A DNA stretch of 64,000 nt from Thermomicrobiales bacterium (GTDB lineage Bacteria > Chloroflexota > Chloroflexia > Thermomicrobiales > UBA6265), in the NCBI GenBank assembly GCA_023957015.1, contig JAMLHR010000006.1, positions 1 to 64,000 on the forward strand, read 5' to 3'. Position numbers and translations under genes: made by a program. Of the stretch, positions 44,622 to 46,750 are shown piece by piece. The notes beneath the pieces are model-generated. The model did not search any database, was not told the origin of the DNA, and worked only from the letters and a program-made list of their open reading frames with translations. Position 1 is the stretch's first letter. Every line of letters starts with the position of its first letter.

Positions 44622-44623
44622 TA

Positions 44624-44656
44624 GGACCACTCGCGAATCGCGGGTGGTTCTTTTTT
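44624..44656 (+). terminator. Rho-independent terminator of the tRNA operon
   Basis: GGACCACTCGCG/CGCGGGTGGTTC stem (one G-U) followed by six T residues, directly after tRNA-Phe. Confidence 0.88.
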
Positions 44657-44730
44657 GTTCATCTGGCCCATCCGCATAGTCCCGGATAGGGTACTTCCTC
44701 ACCACCTCCACACATTCATACTCTATACTT

Positions 44731-44771
44731 ATTCCTATATAGGAATCATTCTCATATATGATGAGAATGAT
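44731..44771. promoter_or_regulatory. Double palindromic metal-regulator-like operator
   Basis: ATTCCTAT/ATAGGAAT is a perfect 16-bp palindrome (44731-44746). It abuts a second repeat, ATCATTCTCAT, five bases, ATGAGAATGAT (44745-44771), whose halves resemble a Fur box. A TATACT -10-like box lies at 44724-44729. It precedes the metal ATPase gene directly. Confidence 0.6.
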
Positions 44772-44779
44772 CGGATTTG

Positions 44780-46750
44780 ATGTCGATGAGTCGAGCCATG
44801 ACGCAACGGAAAGAACCACAAACGATACCACTGGCGATCGCAGCCAGCCTCACCTGGATGGCGACCATCACTGGTTTCGCGCTTTCAAGGGTGGATGACA
44901 CCTATGCTGTGGGCGCGTTCATGCTGGCGTATCTCTTCGGCGGGACACTCGCAACGCGTGATGCTATCAGCGATCTGCTCGAAGGACACGTCAATGTTGA
45001 TCTCCTGATGGTGCTGGCTGCCGCGGGTTCGGCGATGCTGGGTCATTGGTTGGAAGGCGCGATCCTGCTCGGGCTCTTCTCCACCTCGAATGCTCTCGAG
45101 TTCTATGCCATGCGACGCACGCGCAACGCAGTACGTGCTCTGATGGACATGACGCCACCGACGGCGCACGTTCAGGTAGGTGATACATACCTCGTAAAGG
45201 ATGTCAACGATGTGCGCGTTGGCGACATGGTACTCATTCAACCCGGCGAACGCATTCCCGTCGATGCGCGTGTTATCGAGGGATCGTCAGCCGTTGACCA
45301 GGCCGCGATCACGGGCGAATCCGCACCTGTTCACAAAAACATCAACGATGATGTCTTCGCGGGAACCATCAATGGTAATGGCAGCCTCATCGTTGAGGTG
45401 ACCAGATTAGCCTCAGACACCACACTGGCGCGGATCGTCGCCCTCGTCGCCGATGCCCAGAACGATCAGTCCGACCTCCAGGAGTTCGCCGAAGGGTTCG
45501 AGGGCAAGTATGCGGTCTTCGTCATTGCCGTTTCCGCCCTGGTCACACTCATCCCCATGATGTTTGGCGTATCGAGTGGTGACGCCTTCTATCGCGGAAT
45601 GACGCTTCTCGTCGTCATGAGTCCATGTGCCCTGGTGATCAGCACACCTGCGGCGACATTGAGCGCACTGGCAAACGCGGCCCGGCGCGGCATCCTGATC
45701 AAGGGAGGTCGGGCGCTGGACACGATGGGGATGATCGATACGGTCGCGTTCGATAAAACCGGCACGCTCACGTATGGTCGCCCGAGCGTCACCGATATCG
45801 TGGTCTTTGACGGACTGGATTCCGCATCCATTCTGGCAACGGCCGCAGCGGTCGAGCAACTCAGCGAGCATCCACTGGGGGCCGCGATCGTGGCCGCAGC
45901 CCAGACCCAGGCTATCGCCATACCGATCGCCGAGAACCTGCAAGCTTATCCCGGTCACGGTGTATCTGCTCAGGTGGGGGATAATCGTGTTGCCCTCGGC
46001 AACCGCCGGATGATGAGTCTGGATGGTATTGCTTTACCCCAAACAGCGCTGGACTACCACCGTAATCTCGGGGCGGAGGGCAAGACACCCATCTTCGTGA
46101 CGGTGAATAGACAGCTCGTTGCCATCATTGCGGTGGCTGATGCACTGCGACCGCACGTCCCGGAAACGCTCGCACGCTTGCGCAAGCTGGGCGTTGGGCG
46201 CACGGTGATGCTCTCCGGGGATACCGATCACGTCGCGGCCACAGTGGCTCGTCGCATCGGGATTGACGAAGTCCGCGCTGACCTGCTGCCACAAGATAAG
46301 CTGATTGCCATTGATGAACTCAAGCGCACCGGTACAGTCGCGATGGTGGGTGATGGTGTGAACGACGCCCCGGCGCTGGCAAAGGCGCACATTGGTATCG
46401 CCATGGGCGGTGTAGGAACCGATGTCGCCCTTGAGACGGCCGATGTTGTGTTGATGTCCGATGATCTTACCAAGGTGGGGTATGCGATCGAACTCAGCCG
46501 CAAGACCAGACGCATAATCCGGATGAATCTCACCTTTGCTCTTGGGGTTATCGCCGTGCTGGCAGTACTCAACCTGACAATCGGGATTCCACTGACGATG
46601 GGTGTCATCGGACATGAGGGCAGCACCGTGCTGGTGATTCTGAACGGTCTGCGGTTACTCGGTTATGGTGGCGGATGGAAGAATCTCATCCATCACAACA
46701 GCGCCCCAGCATCGACGACTAAACCTCGCTTCCAGGTGATTGCAGCGTAG
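44780..46750 (+). CDS. P1B-4-type heavy-metal translocating ATPase
   Basis: About 656 residues, a transition-metal exporter. The transmembrane metal site is SPCALVISTP and the last helix carries HEGSTVLVILNGLRLL: SPC plus HEGGT-like text marks the P1B-4 class, whose members move Co2+, Fe2+ or Zn2+. The A-domain has TGESAPV, the P-domain DKTGTLT, the N-domain SEHPLG, and GDGVNDAPALAKAH is intact. It lacks N-terminal metal-binding domains, as usual for this class. Starts at 44780, 44786 or 44798 are all possible; no strong Shine-Dalgarno decides. The palindromes just upstream suggest metal-responsive repression. Confidence 0.9.
   Translation: MSMSRAMTQRKEPQTIPLAIAASLTWMATITGFALSRVDDTYAVGAFMLAYLFGGTLATRDAISDLLEGHVNVDLLMVLAAAGSAMLGHWLEGAILLGLFSTSNALEFYAMRRTRNAVRALMDMTPPTAHVQVGDTYLVKDVNDVRVGDMVLIQPGERIPVDARVIEGSSAVDQAAITGESAPVHKNINDDVFAGTINGNGSLIVEVTRLASDTTLARIVALVADAQNDQSDLQEFAEGFEGKYAVFVIAVSALVTLIPMMFGVSSGDAFYRGMTLLVVMSPCALVISTPAATLSALANAARRGILIKGGRALDTMGMIDTVAFDKTGTLTYGRPSVTDIVVFDGLDSASILATAAAVEQLSEHPLGAAIVAAAQTQAIAIPIAENLQAYPGHGVSAQVGDNRVALGNRRMMSLDGIALPQTALDYHRNLGAEGKTPIFVTVNRQLVAIIAVADALRPHVPETLARLRKLGVGRTVMLSGDTDHVAATVARRIGIDEVRADLLPQDKLIAIDELKRTGTVAMVGDGVNDAPALAKAHIGIAMGGVGTDVALETADVVLMSDDLTKVGYAIELSRKTRRIIRMNLTFALGVIAVLAVLNLTIGIPLTMGVIGHEGSTVLVILNGLRLLGYGGGWKNLIHHNSAPASTTKPRFQVIAA

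Follow-up and report, generated by a model that had tools for sequence, protein, structure and literature searches.

A candidate PerR-type operator ahead of a P1B-4 metal ATPase gene in a Thermomicrobiales bacterium

Two adjoining palindromes precede a gene for a P1B-4-type metal ATPase in a draft Thermomicrobiales genome, and we consider it probable, from the sequence and its conservation, that the element serves as operator for a pump exporting iron (or cobalt) and is controlled by a PerR-type repressor of the Fur family. The unit conserved in relatives, as judged from the promoters compared, is a 15-bp box lying over the junction of the palindromes, and not either palindrome. For a bacterial order that has been little studied, these findings offer a testable iron/peroxide operator and a likely regulon (perR, hemA and the P1B-4 pump).

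The window, meaning the whole stretch of 64,000 nucleotides that was analysed, is contig C61:1-64000 of a draft genome of 2.84 Mb in 104 contigs, 91% complete. Read 5' to 3', the region comprises three tRNA genes (Leu, Val, Phe), a terminator, a short spacer with TATACT, the two palindromes and the ATPase gene. Since the tRNA cluster is closed by an intrinsic terminator, the ATPase probably has a promoter of its own. The main box begins 10 bp past TATACT (44724-44729). No good -35 was found, and a consensus promoter scan gave no + strand promoter at this place. The features are the following.

44623-44651, + strand: intrinsic terminator closing the tRNA cluster (Leu, Val, Phe) that lies upstream, from tRNA and terminator searches
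44723-44737, + strand: weak upstream 7-1-7 box CTATACTTATTCCTA, score 5.4, 17 bp ahead of the main box and overlapping the -10
44724-44729, + strand: -10-like element TATACT, read from the sequence and shared with L005 and L006, two loci of the same genus
44731-44746, no strand: 16-bp palindrome ATTCCTATATAGGAAT, made of the upstream box right half, TA and the main box left half
44740-44754, + strand: predicted main Fur/PerR-type 7-1-7 box TAGGAATCATTCTCA, 2 mismatches to the consensus TGAGAATNATTCTCA, straddling the palindrome junction
44745-44771, no strand: 27-bp inverted repeat, whose left arm ends in the main box right half and whose right arm bears an extra TGAGAAT
44762-44768, + strand: additional TGAGAAT half-site, at +22 bp relative to the left half of the main box
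44768-44778, + strand: TGATCGGATTT, identical in three same-genus ATPase leaders, just ahead of the start codon
44780-46750, + strand: P1B-4-type metal ATPase, 656 aa from ATG 44780, assigned from motifs and a structure match

Hallmarks of P1B-4 ATPases are an SPC motif in the membrane region and HEG[GS] towards the C-terminus. The protein encoded here carries SPC (281), HEGS (612) and DKTGT (325) and has no CPC, and its best solved match is 7qbz (5.3e-146), an entry named 'Cadmium translocating P-type ATPase', so its earlier assignment to this class holds. By its class the pump would export iron (or cobalt). Other possible starts are TTG 44777, ATG 44786 and ATG 44798. An out-of-frame ORF of about 45 codons from ATG 44758 (44758-44895) overlaps the ATPase start and is likely due to chance. 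A second ATPase match in the same genome, 40% identical and with one in-frame TGA, lies at G000:C57:918-2789.

The original prediction described a perfect 16-bp palindrome touching a 27-bp inverted repeat in a metal exporter promoter, and this description proved accurate. The palindrome is exact at 44731-44746, both by direct reading and in a repeat search; the inverted repeat, ATCATTCTCAT-ATATG-ATGAGAATGAT at 44745-44771, has perfect 11-bp arms around a 5-bp loop; the two overlap by 2 bp, and both lie directly upstream of the ATPase gene. The window contains 4 perfect palindromes with 8-bp arms, where 100 dinucleotide shuffles average 1.45, so that the 16-bp palindrome by itself is not rare. 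Arms of 11 bp with a loop of 0-10 gave 18 listed matches against a shuffle mean of 0.27, many of these matches being nested and the distinct hairpins fewer. A touching pair of both repeat kinds occurred in 0 of 100 shuffles. Divided into heptamers, the stretch reads CTATACT-T-ATTCCTA-TA-TAGGAAT-C-ATTCTCA-TATATGA-TGAGAAT-G-ATCGGAT. Its half-sites had been called Fur-box-like, and indeed ATTCCTA, TAGGAAT, ATTCTCA and TGAGAAT are variants of one Fur-family heptamer.

The main box has the form of a Fur-family 7-1-7 operator, with two inverted, TGATAAT-like heptamers around one central base (TAGGAAT-C-ATTCTCA). With a scoring matrix made from 30 PerR-gene promoters it scores 21.3, a value reached by none of 100 shuffles, in a test that is not wholly independent because the seed consensus of the matrix came partly from the ATPase boxes, where it was first seen. 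It is also the top score in the window, the next being 11.5. To assess conservation we scored 30 ATPase loci, namely our own and the 29 best matches among 61 genomes, over 600 bases upstream (277 in L031). A box beating all 100 shuffles was present in 20 of the 30, our own included (19 of the 29 relatives), and no box exceeded all 100 shuffles in the other ten (L008, L011, L012, L016, L017, L018, L019, L025, L029 and L033). When the three same-genus promoters were aligned, a single conserved block, TATACTTATTC-TA...GAAT-ATTC-CA, stood out amid otherwise unalike sequence, followed by the identical TGATCGGATTT; elsewhere among 207 loci the latter recurs in L090 only, besides L040, which is the 44768-44778 site itself. 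A generic Fur box was also sought ahead of P1B ATPase genes at 80 loci from named genomes, of which nearly all lie outside the order; all 10 fixed letters were found at 1 of the 80, and this sole match (L128) is from Thermomicrobiales.

The genome holds three Fur-family genes, one of which encodes a PerR-like protein (P0001; locus L001, G000 C20:2260-2676, minus strand) and adjoins sufC. An orthologue of at least 53% identity was detected in 45 of the 61 genomes, a total that includes a partial match and a split one. The best 30 of these 45 loci were fetched, and all 30 carry a box within 4 mismatches in the gene's own promoter (two or fewer in 22); in the 27 loci where a -10-like element was recognised, the box follows it by 11-16 bp. 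The best solved match of P0001 is B. subtilis PerR 2fe3 (4.1e-23, ungapped). Mapped through this match and the orthologue alignment, the residues at PerR positions 37, 85, 91, 93 and 104 are His, Asp, His, His and Asp in all 30 orthologues, in which four Cys are likewise invariant. We take H37, D85, H91, H93 and D104 to be the PerR metal site, accompanied by two CxxC motifs; Asp104 distinguishes PerR from Fur. P0001 itself bears the full set of metal-site residues and cysteines. Against NCBIfam, a Fur model scored best (90.8) with the PerR models near, all under cut-off; for the two PerR equivalogs P0001 gave 87.9 and 85.9 bits against cut-offs of 200 and 180. The one DtxR-family gene of the genome has a best box score of 1.7 in its locus. 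In the interval that separates a metal ABC transporter gene from a Zur/Mur-like gene of the Fur family, at about 1439-1463 of L003 (G000 C94), we also observed an inverted repeat, AGTATTGA-TACATGGTG-TCAATACT, which looks like a different metal operator.

Exact matches to YRRGAMTNATTCBYA lie at three places in the genome, ahead of the PerR-like gene, of hemA and of the ATPase. Simple base counting predicts about 2, so their number is no evidence in itself and it is the location before such genes that counts. Within one mismatch there was no clear excess (17+13 against 13+11 for the reversed control), and a looser pattern matched 62 places per strand against 16, an excess that is soft because the reversed control differs in base order. 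Ranked by score among 33 fetched sites of this genome, the PerR-like gene (26.6), hemA (22.3) and the ATPase (21.3) come first, and a far-upstream rpoB site is fourth. The hemA box exceeded all shuffles in 4 of 29 scored loci (30 fetched, one too short), namely L097, the same-genus L098, L101 and L119, and those of L099 and L102 were each reached by one shuffle; as a target, hemA would thus be shared only locally.

Two further candidates were rejected. The rpoB site (L035 1501-1515, G000 C31:4499) is near-consensus and follows TTGACA about 320 bases upstream of rpoB, but its box, TGAGAATGATTATCA (19.9), was found in this species only: among 24 loci fetched, with L230 and L231 left out, the other 21 scored reached at best 9.2, and same-genus L209 reached 5.6. 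The sole ferritin-family locus has a best box score of 5.2. For catalase, the draft genome gave no PF00199 match.

Across the ATPase sample, a PerR orthologue was detected in 13 of the 20 genomes with a box and in 8 of the 10 without, so that box and regulator presence do not track each other in these incomplete assemblies. Five of the seven box-positive genomes without an orthologue also lack the neighbouring sufC; of the other two, G021 carries its sufC at the edge of a contig, and in G038 the Fur-family gene adjoining sufC is a more distant one. A genuine counter-example to the pairing is G002, which is 98% complete and has the box at both ATPase and hemA, together with a single Fur-family gene found, 26% identical to the PerR-like one. 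A close sufC is missing from 12 of the 61 genomes (G002, G004, G009, G022, G023, G025, G026, G029, G031, G041, G053 and G058), well-completed drafts among them, through assembly gaps or real loss.

The boxes also show a preferred spacing. Scoring each offset from 8 to 60 bp on both sides of the main box, we found scores above -5 at +17 in 16 of 30 PerR genes (3 at the next best offset), and at -17 in 5, +17 in 3 and -23 in 3 of the 20 box-positive ATPases, counts that come from related loci and are not independent events. The -17 box scores 5.4 here, 6.5 in L005 and 5.5 in L006. This tandem spacing explains the 16-bp palindrome, as ATTCCTA (right half of the -17 box) and TAGGAAT (left half of the main box) meet around TA. 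At +22 the score is -2.1 here against -23.6 and -14.4 in L005 and L006, the TGAGAAT half-site being absent from both of these same-genus relatives. Several dimers of one regulator may bind cooperatively. Tentatively, and with less confidence than for the operator itself, we propose a Thermomicrobiales PerR regulon centred on iron efflux and heme synthesis, not catalase, whose operators would consist of 7-1-7 boxes in tandem, set at a constant step of 17 bp with a 2-bp linker; dimers would load side by side, secondary palindromes would arise between neighbouring boxes, and in this species the half-site at +22 would lengthen the array.

The mechanism we propose is that metal-loaded repressor dimers would occupy the box at 44740-44754 and possibly also the weaker box 17 bp upstream, over the -10, and the extra half-site downstream. 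They would shield the promoter between the -10 and about +35 of the presumed transcription start and hold the pump off. Peroxide would oxidise the iron-loaded repressor, which would then leave the DNA, and the freed pump would lower cytosolic Fe(II). The same predicted box also stands before hemA and before the gene of the repressor itself. Fur/PerR-type control had been anticipated in the original prediction, and the Fur-family box at the ATPase and PerR-like promoters, together with a PerR-like protein matching 2fe3, supports it.

A less likely reading is that another Fur-family member, an iron-sensing Fur or an L002-type paralogue, reads the box as an iron-dependent repressor or activator, alone or with PerR. 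The genome has three Fur-family genes, boxes remain where no PerR orthologue was detected, Fur and PerR boxes are very similar, Listeria frvA answers to both proteins (PMC3283593), and iron induces B. subtilis pfeT via Fur (PMC9993123). However, no strong box lies near the other two Fur-family genes (best 10.5 for L002 and 9.5 for L003, against 26.6 at the PerR-like gene), and it is the PerR-like gene that bears the box in its own promoter throughout the fetched loci; both points count against this reading.

Two further readings are both very improbable. That the palindromes serve two different regulators, as the original prediction had suggested, draws on their different sequences, their perfection and a contact that shuffling did not reproduce; it was not borne out, since the half-sites are of one heptamer type, the unit conserved across the order spans both palindromes, the left one is accounted for by the 17-bp tandem, and the right arm of the inverted repeat is missing in L005 and L006, both same-genus relatives fetched. 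Tandem boxes can, in this way, pass for unrelated stacked palindromes. The 27-bp repeat could instead act as a leader RNA hairpin controlling translation, as its 11-bp stem ends 8 nt ahead of ATG 44780 (-18.7 kcal/mol), but its z of -1.88 is modest, 13 of 200 shuffles were as good, and the L005 and L006 leaders do not form the stem.

PerR-type control of the exporter would fit what is known elsewhere and add a further phylum to those in which PerR/Fur governs P1B-4 iron pumps. The known regulators of these pumps are Fur and/or PerR, according to a review (PMC7762939). In B. subtilis, peroxide relieves the repression of pfeT through PerR and iron induces the gene through Fur (PMC9993123); PerR represses hemAXCDBL as well (PMC5189952). 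The 7-1-7 view of such operators and multi-dimer binding are likewise established (PMC11353095, PMC3293774). No PerR regulon in Chloroflexota, Thermomicrobiales or Sphaerobacter was described in the literature searched, at title and abstract level. In principle the arrangement itself has precedents in Bacillus and Listeria, and it is here found in Thermomicrobiales; possible novelties are the 17-bp step and the pairing of iron efflux with heme in one regulon, in a draft genome where no catalase was found.

One close parallel is B. subtilis PerR with pfeT (zosA) and hemAXCDBL, where a P1B-4 ATPase and heme synthesis also stand under a PerR-type protein acting on a 7-1-7 inverted repeat. It differs in phylum and in its box, which follows TTATAATNATTATAA in the consensus quoted in PMC545781, whereas here the type is TGAGAATNATTCTCA/TAGGAAT; moreover, in our genome no PF00199 catalase was found and the sole ferritin-family locus is without a box. 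The Listeria monocytogenes frvA promoter, under Fur and PerR, similarly places Fur-family boxes at a P-type ATPase gene; it has a Fur box and, apart from it, a putative PerR region (PMC3283593), where our promoter shows one box type. The box sequence itself is paralleled by predicted Desulfovibrio PerR sites, which use TAGGAAT and CAGGAAT halves around one central base (PMC545781, Table 7); the targets listed in that source are rubrerythrin, ahpC and perR, whereas in Thermomicrobiales this type of box precedes a P1B-4 pump.
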